Shown here piece after piece: positions 18,574 through 50,676 of a stretch of DNA of 64,000 nucleotides. Made by a program: the position numbers and the translations under genes. Position 1 is the first letter of the stretch. Each line of letters begins with the position of its first letter. The notes below the pieces were generated by a model. The model searched no databases. It had not been told where the DNA came from and worked only from the letters and a program-made list of their open reading frames with translations. Origin of the DNA: Salinivirga cyanobacteriivorans (lineage in GTDB: Bacteria; Bacteroidota; Bacteroidia; Bacteroidales; Salinivirgaceae); the NCBI RefSeq assembly GCF_001443605.1, contig NZ_CP013118.1, forward strand, positions 1,561,501 to 1,625,500, read 5' to 3'.

Positions 18574-18970
18574 GGGGCCGACATGGTTTTGACAGCAGGT
18601 TGAATTGGTACGTAAGCATGCCGGGTTTTGTATATTTCCCGTAAAAAGAATGTTCACACTTTTTTTAATTGGCAACAATAATTATGCGCTCGCAGCGTAA
18701 TCAGGCAAAGCCGGTTACTGCTTAATCCACGACTACAATAGGTCGGGACGAGTCACTCCCGGATGGTGTTTCCCGATACCGGTCCGATAAGGAGTGCCAG
18801 AAGTTTGGGATAGCTTTTACGGCGCCGCGACGTAGGAGCGAAATTCAGCGGATAAGGTCAGTTTGCGGGTGTCCATACCCTGATCTGACCCGACAATTAA
18901 GAATGGACTAAGCATGTAGAAAGCGTATGGGTTGCCTGTCTGGACGCGGGTTCGACTCCCGCCGGCTCCA
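18574..18970 (+). ncRNA. ssrA: Transfer-messenger RNA (tmRNA)
   Basis: tmRNA rescues stalled ribosomes and tags the nascent protein for proteolysis. The 5' end GGGGCCG pairs with CGGCTCC at the 3' end (18963-18969), with discriminator A at 18970; CCA is not encoded. The T-arm GCGGGTTCGACTCCCGC is clear. The tag reading frame runs 18671-18700: GGC AAC AAT AAT TAT GCG CTC GCA GCG TAA, giving (A)GNNNYALAA. The ALAA end is the ClpXP-type degron. The length of about 397 bases is normal. Repeat E1 begins two bases after the 3' end, so the tmRNA borders the accessory stretch. Confidence 0.95.
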
Positions 18971-18971
18971 C

Positions 18972-19036
18972 TGAATACAGTTCGAGTGTGAGTAGTGAGC
19001 AAGAATACTCCTTACTCAACTCTAACTCAAACTGTA
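18972..19036 (+). repeat. Imperfect hairpin repeat E1 directly behind tmRNA
   Basis: Bases 18976-19036 form a long imperfect hairpin: TACAGTTCGAGTGTGAGT on the left against ACTCTAACTCAAACTGTA on the right. The first 28 bases (18972-18999) recur at 19697-19724 with 26 of 28 identical. Confidence 0.7.
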
Positions 19037-19054
19037 ACACAAAAAGAGTAAAAA

Positions 19055-19116
19055 TACAGTTTGAGTGTGAATAGAAACAGGAGAAAGGAAACTCTTTACT
19101 CAATTTTTACTAAAAC
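19055..19116 (+). repeat. Degenerate hairpin repeat E2
   Basis: It begins TACAGTTTGAGTGTGA, nearly the E1 left arm, and includes AAGGAAACTCTTTACTCAA, a core shared with E3 and with the 148-bp repeats. The right arm is weakly complementary. It ends just before the four-helix-bundle ATG at 19122. Confidence 0.5.
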
Positions 19117-19121
19117 AGCTT

Positions 19122-19466
19122 ATGTTTGATTTCGAAAAGCTCTCTGTCTATCAAAAAGCCAAAAGGTATAATAAAAATGTTGCCGGCTTTTTGGCCAGCA
19201 CAAAAACTGACCGTACAACTAACGACCAACTTCGAAGAGCAGCTTTCAGTATAATGCTTAATATTGCAGAAGGTGCTGGCAGATTTACCAATGCAGATAA
19301 AAGAAACTTTTATGTAATTGCCCGTGGCTCAGCATTTGAATGTGTGGCCATTTTTGACTACCTTAAAGATTGCGATACAATAGAAGAAACTCAGTACACA
19401 GCATTCTATCATGAACTTGAAGAAATCTCTAAAATGCTCTTTGCACTCATTAAATCACTTAAGTAA
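19122..19466 (+). CDS. Four-helix-bundle protein (S23 / rRNA intervening-sequence protein family)
   Basis: The 114-residue protein has the family marks: FEKLSVYQKAKRYNKNVAGF at the N-terminus, DQLRRAAFSIMLNIAEGAGR in the middle (residues 36-55) and DKRNFYVIARGSAFECVAIF after it. Relatives are encoded in 23S rRNA intervening sequences, beside diversity-generating retroelements (Avd) or as solitary genes. Their role is nucleic-acid binding where known. Here it is solitary, with hairpin repeats E1/E2 upstream and E3 downstream and a GIY-YIG remnant 12 bases after its stop, an arrangement suggestive of a small mobile element. Confidence 0.88.
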   Translation: MFDFEKLSVYQKAKRYNKNVAGFLASTKTDRTTNDQLRRAAFSIMLNIAEGAGRFTNADKRNFYVIARGSAFECVAIFDYLKDCDTIEETQYTAFYHELEEISKMLFALIKSLK

Positions 19467-19477
19467 ATACAGTTTAA

Positions 19478-19699
19478 ATACGAGCACATAAAATAATTAA
19501 ACTCTACACCGGCTGTACCTCAAACCTTAAGAACAGACTAAAAGCCCATAATTTGGGTAAAGTTAAATCTACAAAAACAAGGCTTCCCACAAGTTTAATC
19601 AGTGCTACAGCCTTTACAGATAAATACAAAGCTTACAAATCCGAAAAGTACCTCAAATCGGGCTCTGGAAGAGCTTTTGTAAAACGCCATCTGATTTGA
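19478..19699 (+). pseudogene. GIY-YIG endonuclease remnant lacking its N-terminus
   Basis: The reading frame ending at the TGA 19697-19699 gives KLYTGCTSNLKNRLKAHNLG, then KVKSTKTRLPTSLISATAF and YKSEKYLKSGSGRAFVKRHL. These are the middle and end of solitary UvrC-like GIY-YIG proteins. The first beta strand with GIY/VYIL is missing and no start codon precedes it in frame; a stop lies just upstream (about 19476). The gene is therefore a 5'-truncated remnant. Its stop codon lies within repeat E3. Confidence 0.75.
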
Positions 19700-19764
19700 A
19701 TACAGTTCGAGCGTAAGTAGTGAGTAAAAGTAAGGAAACTCATTACGCACACTAAAACTGCAGT
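19697..19764 (+). repeat. Imperfect hairpin repeat E3
   Basis: Its left 28 bases match E1 at 26 positions. The left arm CAGTTCGAGCGTAAG and the right arm CATTACGCACACTAAAACTG can pair imperfectly around an AAGGAAACTC core. With E1 it brackets the four-helix-bundle gene and the GIY-YIG remnant as direct repeats 725 bases apart. Confidence 0.65.
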
Positions 19765-19778
19765 TCCATAAAACACCA

Positions 19779-21215
19779 TTATTTGATCCACAGAATAGAA
19801 TTATATGTGCCATGCTCATTGTTTTCATAAACCGGGTTTGCCGGATCTGGCATCCATTCTCCATCCACAATGAATTTATAAATAATTTTACCTTGCGGTA
19901 AATGCAAATCCAGTTCCCACTGGTTGTTGCGCCAAAGCATTTGATATCCATTTGGATTCCAGTCATTGAATGATCCTGTAACAATTACCTCTTTGGCATC
20001 TTCAAAATCAGCCAGCACAAAGGTATGATTCGGTTTATAGACCAGCAGTGAATTGGCAATTTCGCCACTATGCGCAACTTTAGGATTTTCAGGGTCGGGT
20101 ATCCATTCCCCGTCCACAATGAATTTGTATTCATAATTGCCGGGCCCCAGGTAATATTCTGCCTTCCATAGCGAATCATCCCTATTCATGCGAATATCAT
20201 TCGGGTTCCAATTATTAAAATTGCCAGCCAGGAAAACATTTTGAGCATCGGGATAACCTTTTAGCGTAAATTGATAACTTTCGCCAATATTGAGCACCGA
20301 ATTTCCGGTTCCATGTTCATTTTGTGATGTGTTGGGATTCGCCGGATCCAATATCCAATCACCATCTACAATAAATTTATAGGTATGGCGGCCATAATCC
20401 ACATAAGCATCAAGCTCCCAACCTTCTGATGTTTTATGCAAGGGTGCATCTTTGTCCTTCCAGCTATTAAAGCTGCCAGCCAGGTAAACATTTTCAGCCG
20501 ACTGGTAATTTTCTAACCTGAACGTATGGTTCGGAACGAATACAATGGAATTGAAATCACTGACACCGTCGGATTCTTTAAGCAAATTGTGCGGGTCAGG
20601 CATCCACCTTCCATCTACTATAAATTTGTAATAATATTTGCCCGGTTCGAGTTCAATTATTGTTTTCCATCCTTTTCCGTATTTCTCCAGCTGCAATTCA
20701 TGTGTTTGCCAGTTATTGAAAGAACCTGCAAGATAGACTTCACTTGCATCTTCATGACCGAATAAGGTAAACTCAACGTTACCACTCTTACTAAACGTTA
20801 CAGACTTCCGCCCAAATTGGTTGAACCCGAAAGGAACAGGGCCATTTACATAACCAGGCGTACCGCCTGTACGCTCATCATTAAAAATCATTTTCAAAAA
20901 TATTTCTCCCAGGGTGGGCTGACTTTGCAGCGGTTTTTGAAGAATCACATGATTACGGCCTTTTTTCCGTGCCTGCCACTTTTCGCCATCCACATCAAAT
21001 GACTTTTGACCGTTAAAGACGCCGGTAACCATCGAGCTATCAAGGTCGTATACTTCGATCAGCTGTTGCTGCAGCGCTGAATCCCAACGGAGGTCGATTT
21101 TAAATATCAGCTCACCATTCTTTACGGTCAGCACATCGGCAGGCAGGTTTTGAGCTTTGGTTTGCAATGCCCAAAAACTTAATAAAAGCAGTATGACTAT
21201 TTTAATTTTATCCAT
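19779..21215 (-). CDS. Exported protein with four tandem CBM48/AMPK-beta-like glycogen-binding domains
   Basis: A signal peptide (MDKIKIVILLLLSFWALQTK) is followed by about 120 residues of a domain I do not recognise. Four E-set domains of about 83 residues then follow, at roughly 145-228, 229-311, 312-394 and 395-478. Each repeats the same pattern: V(Y/F)LAGSFN(N/S)W at its start, then YKFIVDG(E/D/R)W(M/I)xDP. This is the CBM48/AMPK-beta glycogen-binding fold usually attached to branching enzymes or kinases. No catalytic domain or T9SS tail is present. The aspartyl protease gene ends 8 bases upstream, so the two form an operon. Carbohydrate binding is inferred from fold only; a scaffold or structural role is equally open. 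Confidence 0.82.
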   Translation of the reverse strand: MDKIKIVILLLLSFWALQTKAQNLPADVLTVKNGELIFKIDLRWDSALQQQLIEVYDLDSSMVTGVFNGQKSFDVDGEKWQARKKGRNHVILQKPLQSQPTLGEIFLKMIFNDERTGGTPGYVNGPVPFGFNQFGRKSVTFSKSGNVEFTLFGHEDASEVYLAGSFNNWQTHELQLEKYGKGWKTIIELEPGKYYYKFIVDGRWMPDPHNLLKESDGVSDFNSIVFVPNHTFRLENYQSAENVYLAGSFNSWKDKDAPLHKTSEGWELDAYVDYGRHTYKFIVDGDWILDPANPNTSQNEHGTGNSVLNIGESYQFTLKGYPDAQNVFLAGNFNNWNPNDIRMNRDDSLWKAEYYLGPGNYEYKFIVDGEWIPDPENPKVAHSGEIANSLLVYKPNHTFVLADFEDAKEVIVTGSFNDWNPNGYQMLWRNNQWELDLHLPQGKIIYKFIVDGEWMPDPANPVYENNEHGTYNSILWIK

Positions 21216-21223
21216 AAATCAAC

Positions 21224-22162
21224 TTAATTTAGGGCCATGCTCATGATGCCTTTTCGTGTGTTTATGCGCACAACACCCTGTTTAAAAAAATCAAAGCCCA
21301 ACATACCTTTAATAAAAATGTCATATGCTGCCCGCATTGAGGTCATATCGAGCAACACTACCTGCATGCGCGGGAACGCCTGGCCTGCAAGCGCAAAATC
21401 ATTCATAACGCCGTAAAGCACCTCAATACGCTCACTATTTGCACCCTGCAGTTTTCTACGGCTGGTAATGGAAATGGTTTTCATCACATTCCGATGATTA
21501 TTGAAATCCAACACATTATGTTCAGCTCCGGTATCAATGCAAAAACGTACATTTTTTCCGCCAACCGGTATTTTTGTTACAATCACATTATTGATAAAAT
21601 CAATCTCATGATGAACTGAATATTTGGTTTTATCGGGACAGGGAGCCATATAATTGCCTTTTTTGTCGATACGGTACATGCGCATTGATTTTTGGCTAAT
21701 ATCCAGAACAACCTCGTAATCGCGTATAAATGCGGTACCGATGAGTCCCAGTATTTTAATATTTCTTACATTTTCGATGTGGCCGAGGTTGAGCACATCT
21801 GCTTTCAGGTTCTCAAACACCAATCCGGCAAAAGAGAACTGATTGATGTGCTTCGTCCTTCTCTTCATGCGACTTCCGGTAATGCCCTGCCCCTGACCTT
21901 TTGCGGCAGGTTTTGATTCCCGGAAATAAGTTGCATTAAGCACCAGGCCAGGAGCACCTGTATCTAAAATAAAGGAACCGGTTTGTCCGTCTATTTTCCC
22001 ATCAATCAGTATGAGGTTACCGGCACGCTTTAGCGGAATAACGATGTTATTGGCCCCTGTTTTTTCTTCAACCATCGCACCCGGCAGGGCAGCCTCTTTG
22101 GCATCGAAGTGCCCCAATTGCGCCAAAACAGAAACCAGTATGATGATCAGGTAATGCGACAT
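21224..22162 (-). CDS. Exported two-lobed retropepsin-like aspartyl protease
   Basis: From the ATG at 22162 the 312-residue protein begins with a signal-like helix (MSHYLIIILVSVLAQLG). It has two catalytic-type motifs: FILDTGAPGLVLN (Asp near residue 67) and FCIDTGAEHNVLDF (Asp near 210). Each is followed by a flap-and-core region including GLIGTAFIRDYEVVLDI and GMLGFDFFKQGVVRIN. Two DTG lobes in one chain suggest an internally dimerised enzyme of the aspartyl protease/PDZ-like family of Bacteroidota. An upstream in-frame extension is rejected because it runs into the 148-bp repeat at 22202. It heads an operon with the four-CBM48 gene. Confidence 0.82.
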   Translation of the reverse strand: MSHYLIIILVSVLAQLGHFDAKEAALPGAMVEEKTGANNIVIPLKRAGNLILIDGKIDGQTGSFILDTGAPGLVLNATYFRESKPAAKGQGQGITGSRMKRRTKHINQFSFAGLVFENLKADVLNLGHIENVRNIKILGLIGTAFIRDYEVVLDISQKSMRMYRIDKKGNYMAPCPDKTKYSVHHEIDFINNVIVTKIPVGGKNVRFCIDTGAEHNVLDFNNHRNVMKTISITSRRKLQGANSERIEVLYGVMNDFALAGQAFPRMQVVLLDMTSMRAAYDIFIKGMLGFDFFKQGVVRINTRKGIMSMALN

Positions 22163-22201
22163 AATAATTAATACAAGCCTAAAAATAGCGATTTTGTTCT
22201 G

Positions 22202-22349
22202 TTTGCAGATGTAAAATCCCCTATTTTGATCAGATACCGGCAAGCTGTGGAATGATAACAGTGTATGAATAAGAAGCAAGCGCAAGGAAACTCCTCACTC
22301 AAACGCTCGCTCAATCTCATACTGGCCGGCATGGCTTCGCTCCGTGATG
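22202..22349 (+). repeat. 148-bp direct repeat, left copy
   Basis: It matches 24009-24156 over 148 bases without gaps and with about seven mismatches. It begins TTTGCAGATGTAAAATCCCC and ends CGCTCCGTGATG. It contains an imperfect inverted repeat starting CAGTGTATGAATAAG and ending CTCATACTG, around the core AAGGAAACTCCTCACTCAA that resembles the E2/E3 cores. It lies immediately upstream of the protease-CBM48 operon. Confidence 0.85.
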
Positions 22350-22409
22350 TTAGTAACAGGGAGTTTGAGGAGCAACAGGGAGGTGGAACTGCTAATCAGA
22401 TAAATATAA

Positions 22410-23414
22410 CTAAACTTGATTTAGCTCAAAACTATACTTGTAATCAATTAGTTTTTTTTCTTCTTTATTCTCTAACCATGCTTTTTCTTTATGGCTGATA
22501 TCAATCATTTCATCCGTTGTTGTTTTCTCAAATCGCATGGCTACTTCAGATAAGATACTCAACTCAAACTCCGAAAATAATTCCTTATTAAATTTCTTAT
22601 AGGCAGCCGGCTTAAATTGCTCCCCGGTTCCCCCATTTGTAAAGTTCGTAAAATGAATATCGACCTCTTCTTTATTGTCCAAATATTCGAAAATACTATT
22701 AAATTTATTTGGTACCGGCCCCATTGGGATAGCACGATACTGAATGCCGCTCATTGAAAATCCTGTTCTTTTATACATCAAAAAGTCAGTATAAAACAAC
22801 AATTTATTTAACTTCGTTTTCCACGGTGCCAGTTGCTCCGCAAAAAATACAACCATCCCGGCAAATTTGTTTAAATCGGGCTTCTTATAACCTGTAAAGG
22901 AGGTAGGTAAATAAGTACTAAAAAAATATCTTTCTAAATACTTTTCCTGCTTATTCTCCTTTCTTGCTTCCAATTGTTTTTTAATGTTTTTATGGATTTT
23001 CTGAATTGCATTCGTTTCTAATGTTGAACTTAAATCAACCAGCTTTTTAAACTCATGAGGATCATCCACCAGCTGAATCAACCGGGCATTGGATTGACTG
23101 GGGACCTCCCCACTTTCATATTGACGGTAACTATTGACACCGAAGCCCAATATTTCAGACATTTTGGTTGCTGATACTCCGTATTTATTACGAATGGCAA
23201 TAATTTGTTCAGGAAATGGTATGCGATATTTTACCCTGTATTGATTTACGAGTTGATTATAATTCAAAATGGCCAATGCATCATCCTCGAATTGCTCCCC
23301 GGTATCTTCACATTCGTATGCATGAAAAAGCACATCAAATGAATTTTTACGAAAACTCATTGTTCGCCATTCTTTCACAATTTTCATTTCCTTGCCGGTA
23401 AATGGACTTTTCAT
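22410..23414 (-). CDS. Antitoxin: degenerate YgiT/MqsA-like N-terminus, Xre HTH and Panacea (DUF4065/SocA) domain
   Basis: Residues about 1-70 follow the YgiT/MqsA layout, but the first zinc pair CPxCG is replaced by SPFTG and only one Cys of the second pair remains (YECEDTGEQ). An Xre-type helix-turn-helix follows (IRNKYGVSATKMSEILGFG, VNSYRQYESGEVPSQ), and from about 185 a Panacea/DUF4065 domain with KLNKLLFYTDFLMYKRTGFS, YRAIPMGPVP and WLENKEEKKLIDY. Panacea domains are established promiscuous antitoxin modules. The gene lies downstream of the toxin gene with a 133-base gap, toxin first as in mqsRA. The HTH should repress the shared promoter. Confidence 0.85.
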   Translation of the reverse strand: MKSPFTGKEMKIVKEWRTMSFRKNSFDVLFHAYECEDTGEQFEDDALAILNYNQLVNQYRVKYRIPFPEQIIAIRNKYGVSATKMSEILGFGVNSYRQYESGEVPSQSNARLIQLVDDPHEFKKLVDLSSTLETNAIQKIHKNIKKQLEARKENKQEKYLERYFFSTYLPTSFTGYKKPDLNKFAGMVVFFAEQLAPWKTKLNKLLFYTDFLMYKRTGFSMSGIQYRAIPMGPVPNKFNSIFEYLDNKEEVDIHFTNFTNGGTGEQFKPAAYKKFNKELFSEFELSILSEVAMRFEKTTTDEMIDISHKEKAWLENKEEKKLIDYKYSFELNQV

Positions 23415-23547
23415 ATAGTAATAATTTTGATTTTAATGGTCATATGGAGCTCGCCATGATGAATCAAATTTCCGTCACACAAGGCTTTCAGTTTTATTAT
23501 AATCATGCAGGTGCGTCAAAATATTTGTCATGGCTCGGTTCATTTCT

Positions 23548-23898
23548 TTACTTTTTAAATGGATAACTCATGGGATGTTCTGCAATATGGAAAGAGATAC
23601 ACACTGCCTGACTATTCTCTATACCCTTACTGACCTTAATGTAAATCTCCTGATGCTTCACGATTCTCCCAAAGACCCACATGGGCAAAATACCATGCAT
23701 CTTATCTTCAAGTGGTCCTTCGGAGTAATTTTCAAGTTTCAATGTTTTTATGATCTCTTTGCGCTGATTGGGTGATATTTCCAAATCATGCAAAGTTTGT
23801 TGATTCTTCCCCCTGTCATCTCGAAACAGGATGCAAAAAAAATCAATTTTGTAATTCAGATCGCTTAAGTATGTTTCGACTTGCTTTTTAGATACCAT
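23548..23898 (-). CDS. Candidate MqsR-like ribonuclease toxin (116 aa)
   Basis: The small protein has the RelE/MqsR-like pattern I know from Bacteroidota toxins: a helical N-terminus (FFCILFRDDRGKNQQTLHDL), then LKLENYSEGPLEDK, MWVFGRIVKHQEIYIKVS and the C-terminal AVCISFHIAEHPMSYPFKK. The WVFG-K-EVYIK-CISFH strands correspond to the MqsR beta sheet. Gene size, position directly upstream of an Xre/Panacea antitoxin and the operator in front support a toxin role. Mode of action (mRNA cleavage) is inferred from family. A RelE/HigB-type assignment is the alternative. Confidence 0.72.
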   Translation of the reverse strand: MVSKKQVETYLSDLNYKIDFFCILFRDDRGKNQQTLHDLEISPNQRKEIIKTLKLENYSEGPLEDKMHGILPMWVFGRIVKHQEIYIKVSKGIENSQAVCISFHIAEHPMSYPFKK

Positions 23899-23912
23899 AG
23901 ATTATACAATCG

Positions 23913-23977
23913 TTGTAAAAATACAACAATAATTTTAATTATACAACTTTAAAGTTTTAATTTTTGTATTTTTACAA
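23913..23977. promoter_or_regulatory. Inverted-repeat operator/promoter region of the toxin-antitoxin operon
   Basis: TTGTAAAAATACAA (23913-23926) and its exact reverse complement TTGTATTTTTACAA (23964-23977) stand 37 bases apart, 15 bases upstream of the toxin ATG. Each half is itself partly palindromic (TTGTA/TACAA), and TATACAAC at 23940-23947 adds a further half site. Two dimer sites of an autoregulating antitoxin are the simplest reading. Confidence 0.65.
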
Positions 23978-24008
23978 GAAAAGCCAACCTTAAGGTGATT
24001 ATATTTTA

Positions 24009-24156
24009 TTTGCAGATGTAAAATCCCCTATTTTGATCAGATACCGGCAAGCTGTGGAATGATAGCAGTGTATGCATAAGAAGCAAGCGCAAGGAAACTC
24101 CTCACTCAAACGCTCGATCAAATTCATACTGGCCGGCATAGCATCGCTCCGTGATG
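24009..24156 (+). repeat. 148-bp direct repeat, right copy
   Basis: Partner of 22202-22349 (about 95% identical). It lies just upstream of the toxin-antitoxin operator, as the left copy lies just upstream of the protease operon. The spacing of the two copies is 1,807 bases. The 212 bases after it hold only short hairpins (for example AAGGATAT-C-ATATCCTT at 24204-24220). Confidence 0.85.
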
Positions 24157-24368: not shown

Positions 24369-26345
24369 TTATTTCACTGGTATACCTAAACCCTTTAGGT
24401 ATTTGAACGTTGAGTCATAATACTCAGGTTTTCGTGTGTGATCATCTATGTTCCCTTCTGGAATAACTATTATCATACCTTGTCTTGCTCGTGTCAATAA
24501 TACCCTATAAGCATTTATTAAATATTTTTTTCTATCTTCTTTATGGATGTTTTGCCATTTAGACCCTACAAAAGAAAATGTTTTCCAACCATCCGTTGAG
24601 TATCTTAAATCTCCATCCCAAGCAATGCAAGCCCAATCTAACTCAAGGCCTTGAACATGAATTCAGTAGCTACATCCTCTATATAAAACGAGGATCTTAC
24701 ATCTTCTTTATCATTTAAAAACAAATGAACCGGATTCATAGGAGATTTCACATCAATTGCAAATGGCTTCAATCTTTGTGCTTGTGACGATACGACGATA
24801 CCATACCTTTCACTACCCCTGGCCTTCTTCTTAAGCCATTCTTTAGCCTTTATTAAGTCTCTAGTGAGGACAATAGGATATTTATCTTTTAGTTTCAAAT
24901 AGGTTTCTTTAGCTTTTGCTTGATTCATATCCAGCACATTTTTAACAAAAAGGGATAAGTTTTCTGCTCTAAATGAGCGCATTGAAACACCAAGATGCAA
25001 TTCAGAATTTAAGCTTACATTAGTCTTCAGTTGCAACTCTGATATGACATTAGCAGCAGAATATTCAGACTCAGTAAGATTAGGCGAAATAAAAACATCC
25101 CAATATGAAAAACGATTCTTGATAGCGTTCAACCATTCAGAAATACCAGCCTCACCTGTATTTATTTCTTGTCCACCTCCAACTAAGCAGACTATAACTG
25201 CCCAATCTTGATGGCGATCAAGACATGATATAAGAAACTCAGGTTCTGAATACTCAAAGTTATGCTGACCTTTTTTTTTGCCTCATGAATTTTACTGTTT
25301 GTTCCCTGCTCCAAGCTCTTTGAGCTTCATCAAATATGGCCACATGGTCATAAGGTGCCTTAGGATCAACCAAATATGCATCTCGATAATGATGAATGTT
25401 TTGAACAAAAGTTTTAACACTTGATTTAGCCTTTCCTTTTGTCAGTTTAATCCCATTAGCCTTTTCATTTTTTATTTTATCTCTTGCTAAAGCTTCTTGA
25501 AGTATCGCTACCAACGGCCCATTACCTGATAAGTATACACTTGCGTTACCATTTATTTCATCAAGATGTGAAGTAGCTACTTTTAACCCAACCAATGTCT
25601 TTCCAGCTCCAGGAACTCCAGTAACAAAACAAATTATTTTTCGCTTTTCCTGTTTTGCTGTTGCTATTATTTTTGATATTGTTGATGTAGTTTTAGTTAA
25701 ATTTTTTGCTTCAGCATCACTTCTGGTTATTTCATCTACGGTATGGCTATTATAAAGAGTTAATGCTGCTTCAACAATTGTTGGAGTTGGATAGTAGCGC
25801 CCTTTGGCAAAATGATCTGGATGTAATTCATGAGCATCACCAAAAAATTCTATAGTACGACCAATTACGGTCCGGAACTCTTCTTTATTTACTTTTATTG
25901 GTAACGATAAATTATCCTTATGAGATGTTGTTAATATCTCCACTGATGAATATTTGGCTTCAGTCGCAACCAAAATTGGAACCAAAAAAGCCTTATGGCT
26001 TGGTTCGTGAAAATTTTTGAGGTCTAGTGCATAATCCCATACTTGCTCCAAGTTTGAGCGATTGTAATTATGCTCTCCTACTTTAAACTTAATAACAAAT
26101 ACAACCCCATGAATGATTGCAAGAACGTCAACTCTCTTGCCCATTCTCGGTATTGAGAATTCAAAAAATATAGTTCCTTCAATATTTTCAAAAGCATCTC
26201 TCAAAATTGATATTTGAACCTCCCATGACTTATTCTGAGCCAATGTGGAATCATATTGATTGGCTAAAGAAATTTCGCCAATAATCTCTTCAGTGTTTTT
26301 TGTAAGGAAAGCTTGAATACTATCTTTAAAATAATAATTCAGCAT
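24369..26345 (-). pseudogene. DUF2075 (Schlafen-group-like) DNA/RNA helicase gene with two frameshifts
   Basis: The first segment (26345 to about 25270) has an N-terminal nuclease-like part (KRVDVLAIIHGVVFVIKFKV), Walker A FVTGVPGAGKTLVGLKVA and Walker B VAIFDEAQRAWSREQ. After MRQKK the frame is lost at a run of nine A where eight would continue into [20 protein letters not shown] and [16 protein letters not shown]. The frame is lost again near 24650, where one base is missing before [18 protein letters not shown]. The end INAYRVLLTRARQGMIIVIP with its helicase arginine stops at 24369. All parts of a DUF2075 protein are present, so inactivation is recent, or the indels are sequencing errors. 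DUF2075 proteins are often found in defence neighbourhoods. Confidence 0.82.
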
Positions 26346-29411: not shown

Positions 29412-30102
29412 GCTGAAGCCGCGTGTAAGTTAGCTAGTTTGTTTATATTGTTTATCGCCTGACAGGCATGCATGGCTTTTAGTCTCGTAAAATTTGAAAC
29501 ACGGATTAAGTGGTTAAATCCAATAAAAAATATACGAAGTAGAATAATTTCAGCGTATGTAGCGCTATGCGCTGGTGCCAGAAATATCATAGATAAACGG
29601 ATTAAGACGGATGCCGTTTTAGGTTTTATTCGCGATAATCCGTCTATCAACGATATCGAATCTTAAGTACTGAATTAGGTATGTGTTTAGCAAAAAATTG
29701 AAAAGAAAACACAAGCCATAAATAAATCAATCAGTTTAATCCGTGTTCTATTTTAATCGGTACGTTTTCAATAGTACCTGAATGATTCCCGTATCTACAC
29801 TGGCGCCGATAATTGTGTCCCGTTTACAATTTATGAAACATCGCGGCGAGTCTGTTTTGGGAACCAAAACACCCGGCTGAAGCCGGGTGCAAGTTAGCTA
29901 GTTTGTTTATGTTGTTTATCGCCTGACAGGCAGGAATGGCTTTTAGTCTCGTAAAATTTGGAACACGGATTAAGTGGTTAAATCCAATAAAAAATATACG
30001 AAGTAGAATAATTTCAGCGTATGTAGCGCTATGCGCTGGTGCCAGAAATATCATAGATAAACGGATTAAGACCGATACCGTTTTAGGTTTTATTCGCGAT
30101 TA
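29412..30102 (+). repeat. 464-bp repeat, copies 1 and 2 (left block)
   Basis: The marker AACACGGATT (written here with its flanks) occurs at 29498 and 29962, exactly 464 bases apart. Copy 1 is complete; copy 2 is cut at about 30102, after TTTTATTCGCGAT, ahead of the Tricorn protease gene. Each unit carries the hairpin CACCCGGC/GCCGGGTG and inverted TAATCCG words. Short ORFs inside it appear on both strands in every copy and are not taken as genes. Confidence 0.9.
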
Positions 30103-30233
30103 CCTGTTGCCAACAATAATTATTCTTAAATGTAGATTCAATATTTGCGTGACCACAAAACCTGGTTTACATTAATCTCTGTACTTATTCGGACAGTTTT
30201 CATTATAGGTCAAAAACAAGTTTGATATTTTCC

Positions 30234-30241
30234 TACCTTTG
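30234..30241 (+). promoter_or_regulatory. Promoter -7 element for the Tricorn-type protease
   Basis: TACCTTTG fits TAnnTTTG, 26 bases before the ATG at 30268. The unique spacer between the truncated repeat and the gene (30103-30267) therefore holds the promoter. Confidence 0.55.
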
Positions 30242-30267
30242 AAAACCCGTTAGATTGTTTCTGAATA

Positions 30268-33200
30268 ATGAAAAACACAAATAAAATGAGAGCTATATTT
30301 TTACTTATCACACTGACTCTGAGCCAATTAGCCAATACAAACACAGACTGGATGCGTTATGCGTCTATTTCGCCCGACGGAAAACAAATTGTTTTTACAT
30401 ATAAAGGCGACCTCTACCTGGTTTCGGCAAATGGCGGCGATGCCAAACCATTGACTTTCCACAAAGCACACGACTACGAAGCGGTATGGAGTCACGACGG
30501 CTCTAAAATTTGCTTTGCTTCGAATCGCTACGGCAATTTTGATTTGTTTATAATAGATACCAATGGTGGCCAGGCCAAACGACTTACTTTTCACTCTACA
30601 GATGAAGTGCCCTACTCTTTTTCGCACGATGACAAACACATTTTTTTTGGTGCGCAGCGCCTCGATGCAGCCAGTCACAGACAATACCCCACCAGTTCGC
30701 AGCCCGAACTCTACAAAGTGGCCGCTGCAGGCAGTAATGTAAAACAGATCTGGACCATTCCTGCTCAGGATGTACAAATAAGCAGCAACGGCAGCACAAT
30801 GCTTTATCATGATAAAAAAGGCGGCGAAGACAAATTCCGCAAACACCACAAATCTTCTATCACACGGGATATTTGGAAATACGATGCAAGCACGCAAAAA
30901 CACACAAAACTTACCACTTTTCGAGGCGAGGACCGAAACCCGGTATTTGCGCAGGACGAAAATGAATTTTATTTCCTCAGTGAGCGCAATGGATCGTTCA
31001 ATGTACACAGTATGAATATTGAAAATTCCGGTGAAGTAAAACAGGTCACAAACTTTATTCCTCATCCGGTGCGTTACCTGAGCATATCCAAAAATGGGAC
31101 ACTCTGCTTCACATACAACGGTTCCATTTACACAAAAACAGGTGATGCAGCCCCTGAAAAAATCAACATAAATATTCGCACAGAAGCCAAAGAAAATCCT
31201 TTGCAACTGGTAAATGTGCAGGGAAATATAAGCGAAATGGCTATTTCACCCAATGGCAAAGAGGTTGCATACATTGTGCGTGGCGAAATATTTGTTTCTT
31301 CGGTAAAAGGTGAAATGCACAAAAGAATTACCGAAACACCTGCCCGGGAGAGATTTGTGAGTTTCTCGCCCGATGGCGAACATATTCTTTATGCCAGCGA
31401 GCGCAATGCCAAATGGAGTATTTATCAGGCATCGAAAAAAAACAGCGATGAACCGTACTTTTTTGCATCAACATTAATAAAAGAAGAGGCGCTGATTGAA
31501 AAGGAAAACAATAATTACCAACCAAAATATGCACCTGACGGGGAAAAAATTGCCTTTATTGAAAACCGGCGCACACTAAAAATCTTAAACCTGAAAGATA
31601 AAACCACCAAAACACTGCTCGACAAAGATAAACTATTGTACATGAGCGAAGGTGACCAGTATTTCACCTGGAGTCCCGACAGCAAATGGCTGCTGGCAGA
31701 ATACTCTCCGGTTCTGGCCAATACCGAAGTCTTGCTGGTTTCAACAGAACACCAGGACTCAATCGTCAACCTAACGCAAAGCGGATATGGCGATTATAAT
31801 CCCAAATGGGTTAATGGCGGCAAACAAATTCTCTGGTTCAGCGATCGGCACGGATTGCGCTCTTATGCCAACAGCGGTTCACGCCAATTGGATGCCTATG
31901 CCATGTTTCTTACAGAAGCCTCATGGGACAGGTTCAACCTGAGCAAAGATGAATATGCGTTGCTCAAAGAAATTGAGGAAAAGAAAAAAGAAGACAACGA
32001 AAAAGAGAAAAAACGCATAAAGAAAAAATACAAAGAAGATAAGGCCGATAGCCTCACCGTAAAATTTGATTGGAATGGATTGCGCGATCGTAAAAAACGC
32101 CTTACCATACACTCCTCGAAACTCGGCGATGCTGTTTTATCGAAAGACGGACAAAAACTATTTTACCTGACACGCTTCGAGGAAAATATGGACCTCTGGC
32201 AAACCAACTTACGCACCAAAGAGACTCAAATGCTGATTGAACTGGGCGTAAGATATGGAAGCCTGAAATGGGACAAAAAAATGGAAACACTCTTCTTACT
32301 GGCGGATGGAAAGGTTTATACCATCGACCCCGAAAAGGAGCGTAAGAAAAAAGTATCACTCGGAGGTGAAATGATGCTCGATGTAGTTGCCGAACGCCAG
32401 CAAATGTTCGATCATGTTTGGGAACGCAACAAAGGCATGTTCTACATTTCTGATTATCACGGTGCCGACTGGGAAATGCTGCGAAAAAACTACGAGCCCA
32501 AACTCCAATCGATTGGCAACGATTTCGAATTTGTTGAACTACTTTCTGAAATGCTCGGAGAACTCAACGTATCGCACAGCGGTGCCAGATACCGTTATAA
32601 AGCGCCCGATAGAGACCAAACCGCTGCGCTGGGCATTTTTATGGATTACAACTTTGACGGGCCCGGAATCAAAATTGCAGAAATCATAAAAGGCGGACCG
32701 CTTGACAAGCATGACCTGGAGGTTTCTGCGGGTATGGTTATTACAAAGTTAGACGGAAAAACAATTGACAACAAAACCGATAACGCAAAATATCTGAATC
32801 GAAAAGCTGGTAAATACACAGCTTTAACCCTACTCGATCAGTCGAGCGGCAAAGAAAAAAACATTACGGTTAAACCCATTTCCCGCTCAAAAGAAAAACG
32901 ACTTATGTACGAGCGCTGGGTACGTAAAAACGAAGAAGAAGTTGCCAAACTTAGCAACGGAAAACTAGCCTATGTACATATTCCCGGCATGAGCGATGGC
33001 CCGTACCGCAATACATACGAAAAAGTAATGGGCAAATATTACGAATGCGACGGCCTCATTGTAGACACCCGCTTCAACGGTGGTGGCGACCTGGTAGGCG
33101 ACTTGAGCATGTTCCTCACCGGTGAAAACTTCATGCAGTATGCCATTGAAGATCGCACAGTAGGATACGAACCGGCATTTCGCTGGACAAAACCTTCGGT

Positions 33201-33513
33201 TGCGATAGTAAACGAAGCCAATTACAGCGACGGACATTGTTTTTCGTGTATGTACAAAGATCTGGGCATTGGCAAACTCATTGGCATGCCGGTTCCGGGC
33301 ACATGTAGTTTTGCAGGATGGGAAATGTTGCAAAATGGCAAGGTGCTCTGGGGATCCATTCCGGTAAGCGCCAAAAATAAAGCCGGCGAATGGCTTGAAA
33401 ACAATGAAACCATGCCCGATGTACAGGTGAAAAACATGCCCGGCAAAATCGACAAGGGAATAGACCAACAATTGGAGCGCGCCGTAGAAGAATTGCTAAA
33501 GGTTACGAAATAG
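30268..33513 (+). CDS. Tricorn-type S41 serine protease (beta-propeller, PDZ, S41)
   Basis: Tricorn-like proteases degrade peptides, often downstream of larger proteases. After a signal-like segment (MRAIFLLITLTLSQLANTNT) come PD40/TolB-like propeller blades (ASISPDGKQIVFTYKGDLYL, WSHDGSKICFASNRYGNFDL, FSPDGEHILYASERNAKWSI). A charged Lys/Glu helix lies near 570-600, a Tricorn C1-like region near 700-780, and a PDZ domain near 790-870 (GGPLDKHDLEVSAGMVITKL). The S41 core follows with LIVDTRFNGGGDL, the nucleophile region NEANYSDGHCFS and GMPVPGTCSFAGW. The 1081-residue length is normal. The gene is intact between two blocks of the 464-bp repeat. Confidence 0.92.
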   Translation: MKNTNKMRAIFLLITLTLSQLANTNTDWMRYASISPDGKQIVFTYKGDLYLVSANGGDAKPLTFHKAHDYEAVWSHDGSKICFASNRYGNFDLFIIDTNGGQAKRLTFHSTDEVPYSFSHDDKHIFFGAQRLDAASHRQYPTSSQPELYKVAAAGSNVKQIWTIPAQDVQISSNGSTMLYHDKKGGEDKFRKHHKSSITRDIWKYDASTQKHTKLTTFRGEDRNPVFAQDENEFYFLSERNGSFNVHSMNIENSGEVKQVTNFIPHPVRYLSISKNGTLCFTYNGSIYTKTGDAAPEKININIRTEAKENPLQLVNVQGNISEMAISPNGKEVAYIVRGEIFVSSVKGEMHKRITETPARERFVSFSPDGEHILYASERNAKWSIYQASKKNSDEPYFFASTLIKEEALIEKENNNYQPKYAPDGEKIAFIENRRTLKILNLKDKTTKTLLDKDKLLYMSEGDQYFTWSPDSKWLLAEYSPVLANTEVLLVSTEHQDSIVNLTQSGYGDYNPKWVNGGKQILWFSDRHGLRSYANSGSRQLDAYAMFLTEASWDRFNLSKDEYALLKEIEEKKKEDNEKEKKRIKKKYKEDKADSLTVKFDWNGLRDRKKRLTIHSSKLGDAVLSKDGQKLFYLTRFEENMDLWQTNLRTKETQMLIELGVRYGSLKWDKKMETLFLLADGKVYTIDPEKERKKKVSLGGEMMLDVVAERQQMFDHVWERNKGMFYISDYHGADWEMLRKNYEPKLQSIGNDFEFVELLSEMLGELNVSHSGARYRYKAPDRDQTAALGIFMDYNFDGPGIKIAEIIKGGPLDKHDLEVSAGMVITKLDGKTIDNKTDNAKYLNRKAGKYTALTLLDQSSGKEKNITVKPISRSKEKRLMYERWVRKNEEEVAKLSNGKLAYVHIPGMSDGPYRNTYEKVMGKYYECDGLIVDTRFNGGGDLVGDLSMFLTGENFMQYAIEDRTVGYEPAFRWTKPSVAIVNEANYSDGHCFSCMYKDLGIGKLIGMPVPGTCSFAGWEMLQNGKVLWGSIPVSAKNKAGEWLENNETMPDVQVKNMPGKIDKGIDQQLERAVEELLKVTK

Positions 33514-33741
33514 CTTAAAATTTAGCTATAAACATCACCGCAACGGGTAGGTGATTAATAAACAGGCTTTCCAATCGGTGATCTGCAGAATGTTATAATA
33601 GTATTGGACTCCTCCGGAGTCCTTGTATACCTTTTTCACATAAAATCTACAAATATGTAAACCCTCCGGGTTTAAGAAATGCACCAAACTGGCGCCGATT
33701 TAACTTCGCTAAGGTTGACTGCGTGAACTCGAGTAAATTGG
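33514..33741. other. Spacer between the Tricorn gene and the right repeat block
   Basis: No gene is seen. Two short palindromes occur: GGACTCCTCCGGAGTCC near 33606 and AACCCTCCGGGTTT near 33659. They resemble the ACCCCTCCGGGGT hairpin behind rpe and may be one family of small intergenic hairpins. A degenerate repeat edge (TGGCGCCGATTTAAC) precedes copy 3. Confidence 0.5.
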
Positions 33742-35788
33742 AACACGGATTACGCGGTTAAATTCAATATAAAATATACGAAGTAGAATAAATTCAGCGT
33801 ATGTAGCGCTATGCGCTGGTGCCAGAAATATCATAGATAAACGGATTAAGACGGATACCGTTTTAGGTTTTATTCGCGATAATCCGTCTATCAACGATAT
33901 CGAATCTTAAGTACTGAATTAGGTATGTGTTTAGCAAAAAATTGAAAAGAAAACACAAGCCATAAATAAATCAATCAGTTTAATCCGTGTTCTATTTTAA
34001 TCGGTACGTTTTCAATAGTACCTGAATGATTCCCGTATCTACACTGGCGCCGATAATTGTGTCCCGTTTACAATTTATGAAATATCGCGGCGAGTTTGTT
34101 TTGGGAACCAAAACACCCGGCTGAAGCCGGGTGCAAGTTAGCTAGTTTGTTTATGTTGTTTATCGCCTGACAGGCAGGAATGGCTTATGGTCTCATAAAA
34201 CTTAGAACACGGATTACGCGGTTAAATTCAATATAAAATATACGAAGTAGAATAAATTCAGCGTATGTAGCGCTATGCGCTGGTGCCAGAAATATCATAG
34301 ATAAACGGATTAAGACGGATACCGTTTTAGGTTTTATTCGCGATAATCCGTCTATCAACGATATCGAATCTTAAGTACTGAATTAGGTATGTGTTTAGCA
34401 AAAAATTGAAAAGAAAACACAAGCCATAAATAAATCAATCAGTTTAATCCGTGTTCTATTTTAATCGGTACGTTTTCAATAGTACCCGAATGATTCCCGT
34501 ATCTACACTGGCGCCGATAATTGTGTCCCGTTTACAATTTATGAAACATCGCGGCGAGTCTGTTTTGGGAACCAAAACACCCGGCTGAAGCCGGGTGCAA
34601 GTTAGCTAGTTTGTTTATGTTGTTTATCGCCTGACAGGCATGCATGGCTTATGGTCTCATAAAACTTAGAACACGGATTAAGTGGTTAAATCCAATAAAA
34701 AATATACGAAGTAGAATAAATTCAGCGTATGTAGCGCTATGCGCTGGTGCCAGAAATATCATAGATAAACGGATTAAGACGGATGCCGTTTTAGGTTTTA
34801 TTCGCGATAATCCGTCTATCAACGATATCGAATCTTAAGTACTGAATTAGGTATGTGTTTAGCAAAAAATTGAAAAGAAAACACAAGCCATAAATAAATC
34901 AATCAGTTTAATCCGTGTTCTATTTTAATCGGTACGTTTTCAATAGTACCTGAATGATTCCCGTATCTACACTGGCGCCGATAATTGTGTCCCGTTTACA
35001 ATTTATGAAACATCGCGGCGAGTCTGTTTTGGGAACCAAAACACCCGGCTGAAGCCGGGTGCAAGTTAGCTAGTTTGTTTATGTTGTTTATCGCCTGACA
35101 GGCAGGAATGGCTTTTAGTCTCGTAAAATTTGGAACACGGATTAAGTGGTTAAATCCAATAAAAAATATACGAAGTAGAATAATTTCAGCGTATGTAGCG
35201 CTATGCGCTGGTGCCAGAAATATCATAGATAAACGGATTAAGACCGATACCGTTTTAGGTTTTATTCGCGATAATCCGTCTATCAACGATATCGAATCTT
35301 AAGTACTGAATTAGGTATGTGTTTAGCAAAAAATTGAAAAGAAAACACAAGCCATAAATAAATCAATCAGTTTAATCCGTGTTCTATTTTAATCGGTACG
35401 TTTTCAATAGTACCCGAATGATTCCCGTATCTACACTGGCGCCGATAATTGTGTCCCGTTTACAATTTATGAAATATCGCGGCGAGTTTGTTTATGTTGT
35501 TTATCGCCTGACAGGCCTGCATGGCTTGTAGTCTCGTGAAATTTAGAACACGGATTAAGCGGTTAAATTCAATATAAAATATACGAAGTAGAATAAATTC
35601 AGCGTATGTAGCGCTATGCGCTGGTGCCAGAAATATCATAGATAAACGGATTAAGACGGATACCGTTTTAGGTTTTATTCGCGATAATCCGTCTATCAAC
35701 GATATCGAATCTTAAGTACTGAATTAGGTATGTGTTTAGCAAAAAATTGAAAAGAAAACACAAGCCATAAATAAATCAATCAGTTTAA
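33742..35788 (+). repeat. 464-bp tandem repeat, copies 3 to 7 (right block)
   Basis: The marker AACACGG occurs at 33742, 34206, 34670, 35134 and 35547. The first four intervals are exactly 464, 464 and 464 bases; the last is 413 because copy 6 lacks 51 bases spanning the CACCCGGC hairpin. Copies differ by scattered substitutions such as CGGTTAAATTC/TGGTTAAATCC and TACC/TACT. In each unit AACACGGATTA and TAATCCGTGTT stand as inverted ends of a 250-base segment. Copy 7 is split by the IS701 element. Confidence 0.92.
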
Positions 35789-37298
35789 TTCTACTTTAAC
35801 ACATTTATTGTTTTGAATAACAGTAATCTATATCCCGTTGCCTTTTTTTGTGTCGATGTTCCAATTTTTCCAACATACGCTCATCTGTCATTTCACGGTA
35901 AAACTTATATACCAAAAAATCCATGATGTCCCTTGCAGAAAGCAATGGAATCTGGTCCTGATTTAAAATTTTCTCCTTTAACATAAAACTGCCTACAATC
36001 ATATTTAATGCAACTTGATGATACCATGATTTCCATTTACGAGTCTGAAAATGGTCCATCCCCAATATTTGCTTTTGTTCTTTGAAACTGTGCTCTATAA
36101 AAAAACGCTGTGCCTGCATATATGCCAGTGCTTGTTCGGTGTACTGGACAAGTTCGGCATTTGTGAATGAATATTTAGTCTCTACGCAATCATTTGTTTT
36201 TCTTTTCGAAACAACCAATAAACGTTTTTCAACGGCATTGGAGGCTTTGTCCCAAATGTAAACAGTCTTGAAATGAAAGAGCCCCTTGAGTTTGCCTTTT
36301 GCAGAATCGCGAATATTTAATTTCTTCCAATCCTTTGCGGACAGGGTTTTAATGTAGGTGTCGGCATTAACTGCTGATGTACTTGCTTTTAGCTTTTTTG
36401 GGGCGCGCCCCCGATTACTCTTGCGTTCGGGCAAATAAAGTTCTGGCTCTTCTAAATATATCTTTTGATTACTATGAATATCAAGCATATAAATTAAGCC
36501 CAAATCAGCCACAGAACGGGTAAATACAATGTCATTTCCATATAGGCCATCCGCTCCAACGTAATCAAATGATATACCCATTTCAAGTTGATGCTTTACT
36601 ATTTCTGTTGCCAACTCTGGTTTTGTGCGGAAAATCCTATCTTCACGGGGTATACCTGCAGCTTCACATCTACCCTGATCATCGATCCATGATTTTGGTA
36701 AATAAAGCCTGGTATCGACCAACGAGGCGTATTTGTCATTACAAAGGCAGCCAAAAACGGCTACCTGTGAGTTTGCTGTTTTTCCTACATTCCCACAATA
36801 CTGATGATCAACACCAACGCTTTTCTTTCCCTTTTTAACCCAACCACTTTCATCGATGAGTAGTCCTGTTAACTTCCGATTGGGCAATGCTTGGTCTACA
36901 TTTTTTGCAGTTTGATCGATGACAGCCCGAGCATCCCAGTTAGATTCTGTTATGAAATGCTGCATCTGATGATAGTTGGCATTCAATGTTTCACTTATGC
37001 GTTCTATGTTTTTCAAATCGCTTAATGCAAGTCCTTCGACATATTGAGAGGCTTTATCGAAGTTTGTCTTTGTTTTATTTTTGAAAAAATACTCATATTC
37101 AGACAAATACACTTCAAGACGGTCGTTAACCGCAAGCAGTGTTTTACCATTGTTATAATCTTTTTTTAAGTGATTCGCTCGTTACCCATTGCAAATAAAA
37201 TTACATTTTTTTAACATGCGCAATATACTAAATGTTAACGGATTATCACTGTTATTCACTTAAAATAACTTCGTTTTTTTTAATCTGTTAAAGTAGAA
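35789..37298 (-). mobile_element. IS701-family insertion sequence, 1510 bp
   Basis: The ends are inverted repeats TTCTACTTTAACA(C/G)ATT. The element is flanked by TTAA on both sides (35785-35788 and 37299-37302), which occurs once in uninterrupted copies of the repeat. A 4-bp YTAR duplication is typical of IS701. It encodes one transposase on the minus strand. The element is complete and its target is exactly reconstructable. Confidence 0.93.
35805..37112 (-). CDS. IS701-family DDE transposase
   Basis: The 435-residue protein shows IS701 signatures: NYHQMQHFITESNWDARAV, the first catalytic Asp in LTGLLIDESGWVKKGKKSVG, HQYCGNVGKTANSQVAVFG, RLYLPKSWIDD and the second Asp in FDYVGADGLYGND. The C-terminal catalytic Glu is in QRFFIEHSFKEQKQILGMDH. 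The frame is open upstream for about 24 codons without ATG. The GTG at 37112 is used here, though a more upstream CTG cannot be excluded. The stop is 16 bases from the left end of the element. It looks intact. Confidence 0.92.
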   Translation of the reverse strand: MYLSEYEYFFKNKTKTNFDKASQYVEGLALSDLKNIERISETLNANYHQMQHFITESNWDARAVIDQTAKNVDQALPNRKLTGLLIDESGWVKKGKKSVGVDHQYCGNVGKTANSQVAVFGCLCNDKYASLVDTRLYLPKSWIDDQGRCEAAGIPREDRIFRTKPELATEIVKHQLEMGISFDYVGADGLYGNDIVFTRSVADLGLIYMLDIHSNQKIYLEEPELYLPERKSNRGRAPKKLKASTSAVNADTYIKTLSAKDWKKLNIRDSAKGKLKGLFHFKTVYIWDKASNAVEKRLLVVSKRKTNDCVETKYSFTNAELVQYTEQALAYMQAQRFFIEHSFKEQKQILGMDHFQTRKWKSWYHQVALNMIVGSFMLKEKILNQDQIPLLSARDIMDFLVYKFYREMTDERMLEKLEHRHKKRQRDIDYCYSKQ

Positions 37299-37452
37299 TT
37301 AATCCGTGTTCTATTTTAATCGGTACGTTTTCAATAGTACCCGAATGATTCCCGTATCTACACTGGCGCCGATAATTGTGTCCCGTTTACAATTTATGAA
37401 ACATCGCGGCGAGTCTGTTTTGGGAACCAAAACACCCGGCTGAAGCCGGGTG
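37299..37452 (+). repeat. Remainder of repeat copy 7 behind the IS
   Basis: TTAATCCGTGTTCTATTTTA resumes the repeat exactly where the IS entered it and continues to the CACCCGGC/GCCGGGTG hairpin. The following 267 bases (37453-37719) hold no gene; around 37635-37715 words such as TTTTATTCGCGAAAACC suggest an older decayed copy. Confidence 0.85.
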
Positions 37453-37719
37453 TAGTTATAATTCCTCATCAAACATCAATTTAACTCCTTTAAGCCCCTC
37501 TCTGTTTTGGTTATTATCATTGCGCCAAAAATTAAGCCCGTAAAAAACCTCCGTTGCGTTCGCTGCGTGAAAAATTAAAAATGTGTCGATTTACCTTCGG
37601 TAAGTTTGACTGGACAGGATCCTGGTTAAAACAGCACACGTATTAGGCGGTGTAATTCGGTTAAACAGAGCAATGCGGATAACCTTTTCAGTTTTATTCG
37701 CGAAAACCTATTTGCTAAC

Positions 37720-49848: not shown

Positions 49849-50116
49849 CGTTATTTAAAATGGAATTTTTGCATCCAATTAAAGAAGTCAAACAAAAATT
49901 CCCTGTTTTCTTCAGATACTTCTAACCAAAGGTTAATTTTCATTAATCAAAACCCATATCGCGATGCTTAAACATTTCATGGCATCAGGGTCATTAGGCA
50001 GGCCGAGTCAAAGTCGCCTGGGTCTCTAAGTTTTGGCTCTCAATATCCCGGGGCCAGGCTCACTGCTGTTTTGTAAATTACATATTTCCGTTTATAAAAA
50101 TAGTGTGCAACGATAT
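49849..50116. other. Gene-free region before the 271-bp tandem repeat
   Basis: Together with the repeat this is a stretch of about 850 bases without a gene. Apart from a 12-bp palindrome AATAACGTTATT over the preceding stop codon (49844-49855) I see nothing distinctive. Confidence 0.5.
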
Positions 50117-50676
50117 CAGTTCACTACGTTCCTGATATTATTACTGTTTCAACTGAGTTTCTTTCGACGAAAGTTCTTGAAGCTTGCCTGTATCCCGATA
50201 CGCTGCGCTATCGGGGATTAATTCAATCCATATTCAGTAATTAAAATTGCAGAATCGATTATGAAAATGTAAACCAATTGTGTTCACAATTGCTAACATT
50301 TTCTATATCGGGATTAACACTCATAAAATCATTAATTCTGATCTGGTGATCATCATAATGATTAATTCGTGTTTAACCGACACAGTTCAGTTCACTACGT
50401 TCCTGATATTATTACTGTTTCAACTGAGTTTCTTTCGACGAAAGTTCTTGAAGCTTGCCTGTATCCCGATACGCTGCGCTATCGGGGATTAATTCAATCC
50501 AAATTCAGCAATTAAAATTGCAGAATCGATTATGAAAATGTAAACCAATTGTATTCACAATTGCTAACATTTTCTATATCGGGATTAACACTCATAAAAT
50601 CATTAATTCTGATCTGGTGATCATCATAATGATTAATTCGTGTTTAACCGACACAGTTCAGTTCACTACGTTCCTG
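50117..50676 (+). repeat. 271-bp tandem repeat (two full copies and a stub)
   Basis: CAGTTCACTACGTTCCTG occurs at 50117, 50388 and 50659, spaced exactly 271 bases. The two full units differ at only about three positions. Each contains hairpins such as CTTTCGACGAAAG, ATCCCGATA/TATCGGGGAT and CAATTGT/ACAATTG. The third start is followed after 18 bases by the SRP RNA region. Confidence 0.9.

Follow-up and report, generated by a model that had tools for sequence, protein, structure and literature searches.

A predicted MqsR-like/Panacea toxin-antitoxin module flanked by unique direct repeats in Salinivirga cyanobacteriivorans, and how it may have been captured

An intact pair of genes, predicted to encode an MqsR-like toxin and an MqsA-like antitoxin with a Panacea domain, lies between two 148-bp direct repeats that occur nowhere else in the genome of Salinivirga cyanobacteriivorans. 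The pair was analyzed within a stretch of 64,000 nucleotides (contig NZ_CP013118.1, positions 1,561,501 to 1,625,500), hereafter called the window; positions below are those of the window unless another sequence is named. Toxin-antitoxin (TA) loci of the same family are bracketed by direct repeats more often than control intervals of the same order, and in two genomes of one genus the same surroundings hold different TA alleles. We put at about even the chance that the module was inserted with duplication of a target of ~150 bp, which would explain the bracketing and would leave repeats through which RecA-type recombination could excise or exchange the module.

Results

A 148-bp repeat specific to one locus

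The two copies of the repeat, which start 1,807 bp apart, are identical at 141 of 148 positions (95.3%), with seven mismatches and no gaps, at the places and with the spacing that an earlier sequence-only reading of the window had given, and they share perfect runs of 56 and 41 bp. Each copy lies upstream of a minus-strand module, the left one before an aspartyl protease gene and the right one before the toxin gene, which that reading had also seen (Table 1). Just outside the copies, mismatches occupy 4 of 8 bases on the left (22194-22201) and 8 of 15 on the right (22350-22364), and the outer tails do not outscore shuffled sequence when aligned (p 0.62 on the left, 0.20 on the right). The tails are thus non-homologous, and the duplicated 148-bp segment has sharp ends. 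For the same reason, we dropped the idea that the homology runs past 148 bp on the right.

Searching the whole 4.8-Mb genome returned the two copies only (E 1.9e-79 and 7.0e-63; next match, E 0.1), both at the TA module; by chance, a 22-base piece of the repeat is expected to occur 0 times. Samples of 60 relatives, 393 genomes of the order, and 396 of the phylum yielded no copy of the repeat, and neither did the phage, plasmid, and viral collections searched. The phylum sample gave three weak, short matches, two of which fall within unrelated genes, and GTDB-wide contigs gave one exact 19-mer match, in an Erysipelotrichaceae MAG, with no similarity beyond those 19 bases. Considering that there are two copies genome-wide and none in the sampled relatives, the repeat is locus-specific and not scattered. 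The same counts rule out an interspersed mobile repeat of the MITE or REP kind. Both same-genus genomes searched lack the TA genes as well as the repeat, and a single-copy empty site was seen in none of the relatives searched. The copies showed no IS, integrase, attC core, or terminal inverted repeat, the best terminal match in the inverted-repeat check being 6 of 12.

Base composition sets the repeat (46-47% GC) apart from the TA genes (35.4%), which suggests that it is more likely to be host than cargo sequence; the protease operon has 42.3% GC and the broken helicase beyond the right copy 35.0%.

Table 1. Positions of the features discussed in the text
Feature	Position	Strand	Remarks
Left copy of 148-bp direct repeat	22202..22349	.	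~40 bp upstream of protease ATG (22162)
Right copy of 148-bp direct repeat	24009..24156	.	110 bp upstream of toxin ATG (23898)
Antitoxin, 334 aa	22410..23414	-	MqsA-like N terminus, HTH, Panacea (SocA/DUF4065) domain
MqsR-like toxin, 116 aa	23548..23898	-	Family alignment, PF15723 matches of relatives, Foldseek 3hi2
Toxin promoter/operator region (putative)	23913..23977	.	Palindrome inside larger inverted repeat 23913-23930/23960-23977
Aspartyl protease gene adjoining left repeat	21224..22162	-	PF13650; homologues without repeat
CBM48/glycogen-binding repeat gene, downstream of protease	19779..21215	-	
Broken SLFN-type helicase, beyond right repeat	24372..26345	-	PADLOC candidate PDC-S41
tmRNA, first feature of accessory stretch	18574..18971	+	
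AAGGAAACTCNTNACKCA in 148-bp repeats	22284-22301, 24091-24108		
AAGGAAACTCNTNACKCA in S23 hairpins	19085-19102, 19732-19749		
G346 repeat array	L147 109-5930		Downstream of tmRNA; copies partly with longer shared sequence
G170 direct repeat	L215 11031-13231		Reverse complement of L215
Mosaic antitoxins of G302 and G222	L122 3938-4942; L124 3931-4935		L124 in toxin-to-antitoxin orientation, reverse complement

The module between the copies

The space between the copies holds the antitoxin gene, the toxin gene, and a putative operator palindrome and nothing else, in agreement with the sequence-only reading, and the TA pair is intact. The antitoxin matches PF13274 (Panacea, 6e-20) and PF15731 (MqsA, 9e-8). 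The toxin sequence itself reaches no model in Pfam or NCBIfam. Of 18 aligned members of its conserved 116-aa family, 15 match PF15723 (MqsR_toxin) weakly (best E 2.8e-4), and the first PDB match of the toxin's predicted structure (pLDDT 88) in Foldseek is the MqsR-MqsA complex 3hi2 (probability 0.99, E 0.022). In addition, plasmid homologues of the pair are annotated as MqsR family toxin and DUF4065/SocA antitoxin. The name MqsR-like, which the earlier reading had already given to the toxin, is based on these weak matches of relatives, the fold, and the plasmid annotation. By domain content and predicted fold, the pair is thus classified as an MqsR-like/MqsA-Panacea type II TA.

The putative operator palindrome AACTTTAAAGTT (23945-23956), 58 bp upstream of the toxin start, occurs exactly at several other loci of the TA family and as near-matches at more. 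The gap between toxin and antitoxin genes (23415-23547) measures 133 bp, as compared with ~10 bp in most relatives and ~77 bp in the repeat-bracketed locus of genome G346.

Neighborhood of the module

The protease gene, presumed to be the owner of the original intergenic sequence, forms with the downstream CBM48 gene a pair that is conserved in G025, G029, and G036. Relatives' protease regions are without the repeat, and a conserved protease promoter was therefore rejected as its identity. The SLFN-type helicase on the other side is split over several open reading frames, as a result of either pseudogene formation or sequencing frameshifts; its N-terminal part matches the PADLOC candidate defense family PDC-S41 (7e-135).

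The sole known structured RNA reported in the window is tmRNA. It is directly followed by an S23 (23S_rRNA_IVP) gene element with long hairpins (18973-19765). A 40-bp stretch is common to the 148-bp repeat and an S23 hairpin, a similarity reached in 0 of 1000 shuffles and by 0 of 580 other window segments. The motif AAGGAAACTCNTNACKCA has four exact occurrences in the 4.8-Mb genome, on one strand and all within ~5 kb. The genome contains seven further S23 matches, and those inspected are flanked by unrelated palindromes. Consequently, the S23 elements were rejected as the source of the repeat, and the similarity looks like local sharing of hairpin sequence.

Two other repeated structures were observed in the window. 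A 464-bp repeat (29412-35832 and 37299-37712) is present in seven copies, in two arrays that flank a tricorn-like peptidase gene (30268-33513), and is accompanied by a putative transposase gene (35805-37112) with partial copies beyond it; this is a second module bracketed by direct repeats, ~6 kb from the TA module. A tandem duplication of 271 bp, 99% identical, is found at 50116-50657.

Bracketing repeats at other loci of the family

The comparison set consisted of 24 further loci of the antitoxin family from the same order, which occupy unrelated genomic positions. At each locus, the DNA just upstream of the toxin was compared with the DNA just downstream of the antitoxin. At a direct-repeat cut-off of score ≥42, which was chosen after the scores were seen and makes the p values indicative, significant direct repeats were found at four of the 24 loci: G346 (62 bp), G212 (62 bp), G055 (33 bp), and G302 (31 bp). 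Repeat scores at the remaining 20 are at or near shuffle level. Control intervals of the same geometry, covering ~1 Mb of the same order, reach the cut-off in 8 of 1598 cases (indicative Fisher p 1.7e-5), a rate that is if anything too high, because the top controls inspected are mostly tandem paralogous coding genes. Local controls within the TA-bearing contigs reach it in one of 109 intervals. With three plasmid TA loci added, none of which is at the cut-off, the comparison with these local controls stands at 4/27 against 1/109 (p 0.006), and at 3/27 when the G302 hairpin is left out (p 0.025), both values again being indicative. Scores in an inverted-orientation control have a maximum of 35.

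The bracketing repeats of the five loci, window included, are different sequences of 31-160 bp, the G302 case being doubtful, and those of the other loci share the direct orientation seen in the window. The repeats of G212 and G055 correspond to the 3' ends of convergent genes for a GH127 protein and an ABC2 permease, respectively, and in each case the toxin side carries an orphan copy of the gene's tail. Each such tail could be all that survives of a tandem paralogue since deleted. At G302, the 31-bp repeat takes the form of a terminator-like hairpin, which may have arisen independently.

The G346 locus displays the layout of module, repeat, module, and repeat on one strand that the sequence-only reading had described. 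Its TA genes lie directly downstream of tmRNA, which is preceded, as in the window, by a saccharopine dehydrogenase-like gene. The repeat (~60 bp) is the spacer downstream of tmRNA; it is present in at least six copies and separates, in one orientation, the tmRNA, TA, endonuclease, AbiGi, and LVIVD lipoprotein genes. A second contig bears one more copy, which lies upstream of a pair of genes. When 62 tmRNA regions were surveyed, direct repeats were found downstream of tmRNA in 8/62 and upstream in 6/62, with no general excess, which limits the idea of a tmRNA hotspot to the window and G346. One control match, in G170, is a mostly non-coding direct repeat of 173 bp around accessory genes, 1.3 kb downstream of tmRNA.

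Different alleles between homologous flanks

In two genomes of one genus, G302 and G222, different TA alleles occupy the space between homologous flanks, with 91% identity over 665 bp on the toxin side and 83% over 1,070 bp on the antitoxin side. Their antitoxin DNA is mosaic, with 58% identity over the first 290 codons and 91% over the last 45. In G302, a solitary antitoxin gene with its putative operator has been kept, and a toxin gene is not detectable. Although contamination of the G302 assembly is estimated at 8%, the contig's long homologous flanks speak for its belonging to the genus. From the alignments, this pair reads as an allelic replacement of the module, one breakpoint of which falls close to the Panacea gene's 3' end. 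The sequence-only reading had raised the possibility of a swap-in, and the presence of different alleles in the same flanks indicates that swap-in does occur in this TA family.

Discussion

The simplest reading, to which we give about an even chance, is the following. A low-GC TA operon would have entered the intergenic region upstream of the protease-CBM48 operon by recombination, needing no enzyme encoded by the module itself. About 150 bp of the target would have been duplicated in the process, leaving the upstream region of the protease intact and placing an extra copy beyond the TA genes. RecA recombination between the repeats could then lose, amplify, or exchange the module as a unit of module plus one repeat, and the toxin, through post-segregational killing, would disfavor loss of the module. 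In general, stretches as long as the perfect runs of 56 and 41 bp would be enough for RecA-dependent exchange. We infer from sequence the repeat's past as the target, the duplication step and its direction, the order of events, and the agency of RecA. The GC contrast, the uniqueness of the repeat, and the absence of terminal inverted repeats and attC favor a duplicated host target sequence around a low-GC cargo. Some points speak against a target duplication. The copies in the window differ at 7 of 148 positions, so either the event would be old or the copies would come from different sources; the orphan tails in G212 and G055 and the G302 hairpin may have other origins; and the copies in G346, at least six, look more like an array than a single duplication of this kind.

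Restriction-modification (R-M) systems are reported to insert with target duplications that are long, on the order of 100 bp, and variable in length (PMC3874152; PMC3031569); both articles cite Nobusato et al. 2000 and Furuta et al. 2010 for this. The TA module resembles those insertions in being a transposase-free selfish gene pair that spares neighboring genes and in having unique, locus-specific direct repeats of the order of 100 bp. The traits of target duplication present here are long bracketing repeats, no recombinase, IS, or terminal repeats of the module's own, and a repeat that varies in sequence and length by locus. The cargo differs, being a type II TA, and the R-M cases are defined by comparison with an empty site, of which none was seen in the relatives searched here.

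The main rival to target duplication, not exclusive with it and in our view possible but rather doubtful, is accretion of cassettes by homology. A circle or fragment carrying the TA genes and one repeat would have been recombined by RecA into a repeat already present in the chromosome, the repeat being a shared intergenic spacer reused as a docking site. In its favor are the G346 array, a series of accessory modules set apart by one repeat in a constant orientation, and the allelic replacement in G302/G222 between homologous flanks, and 95% identity would fit copies of different origin. However, in S. cyanobacteriivorans the repeat serves a single module, and neither ~850 genomes nor the phage, plasmid, and viral collections searched yielded a repeat-bearing donor.

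Segmental duplication by replication slippage or unequal exchange, with the TA genes between the copies by chance, is unlikely. The window does contain other recent duplications, namely the 464-bp array and the 271-bp tandem. Yet the 148-bp copies are non-tandem and enclose the TA module alone, and an excess of bracketing repeats is seen at further loci of this TA family. It is very improbable, primarily because of the copy number, that the repeat is a small non-autonomous hairpin element inserted twice, for example from S23-gene palindromes: the S23 hairpin beside tmRNA does resemble a 40-bp core of the repeat, and all four genomic occurrences of the motif that they share are at this locus, but there are only two copies, terminal inverted repeats are absent, the right copy has a weak hairpin, and the palindromes of the other S23 genes are unrelated.

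Two known types of element share part of the architecture. A composite transposon likewise carries cargo between two direct repeats, and was rejected here because the repeats are without a transposase gene and without terminal inverted repeats. Integron or CALIN arrays likewise contain accessory modules in one orientation separated by repeats, TA genes among them; they differ from the present case, in which there are two copies only and no integrase was recognized among nearby open reading frames. The attC core motifs GTTRRRY and RYYYAAC are absent from both strands of the repeat, and an integron attC was thus rejected.

The sequence-only reading had proposed a cassette that moves as repeat plus module. 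Of this, the bracketing of the TA genes, here and at other loci, holds up. The 148-bp sequence as the moving unit does not: it is present here alone, its GC content is far from the 35% of the TA genes, most TA relatives are unbracketed, and each bracketed locus has a sequence of its own.

In a survey of Panacea antitoxins, MqsR-like was the most frequent recognized toxin domain (n = 90; Kurata et al. 2022, PMC8832971), and the forces behind the swapping of Panacea partners were called unclear (PMC8832971). The module analyzed here conforms to the MqsR-like subgroup of Panacea (DUF4065/SocA) systems in that its MqsR-like toxin adjoins an HTH-Panacea antitoxin. It departs from the subgroup in that the zinc-site cysteines of the MqsA N terminus are largely lost (MKSPFT, as against MRCPVC in G040). 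Its neighborhood bears on module exchange, which that survey left open.

We suggest tentatively, and with more doubt than confidence, that Panacea-type TA operons of Bacteroidota move and swap as recombinase-free cassettes, in which repeats made at capture act together with recombination at the conserved 3' end of the Panacea gene that swaps the toxin-specific part. The locus-specific repeats generated by capture would let homologous recombination excise, stack, and exchange modules. Because repeats are found at about one in six loci of the family and an allele pair is available within one genus, a homology-based mechanism is directly testable. These findings bear on how small TA modules free of transposase and integrase spread between chromosomal sites and on how Panacea antitoxins gain new toxin partners. 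Should Panacea-type operons indeed behave as recombinase-free cassettes, this would explain how the antitoxins come by their "hyperpromiscuity".
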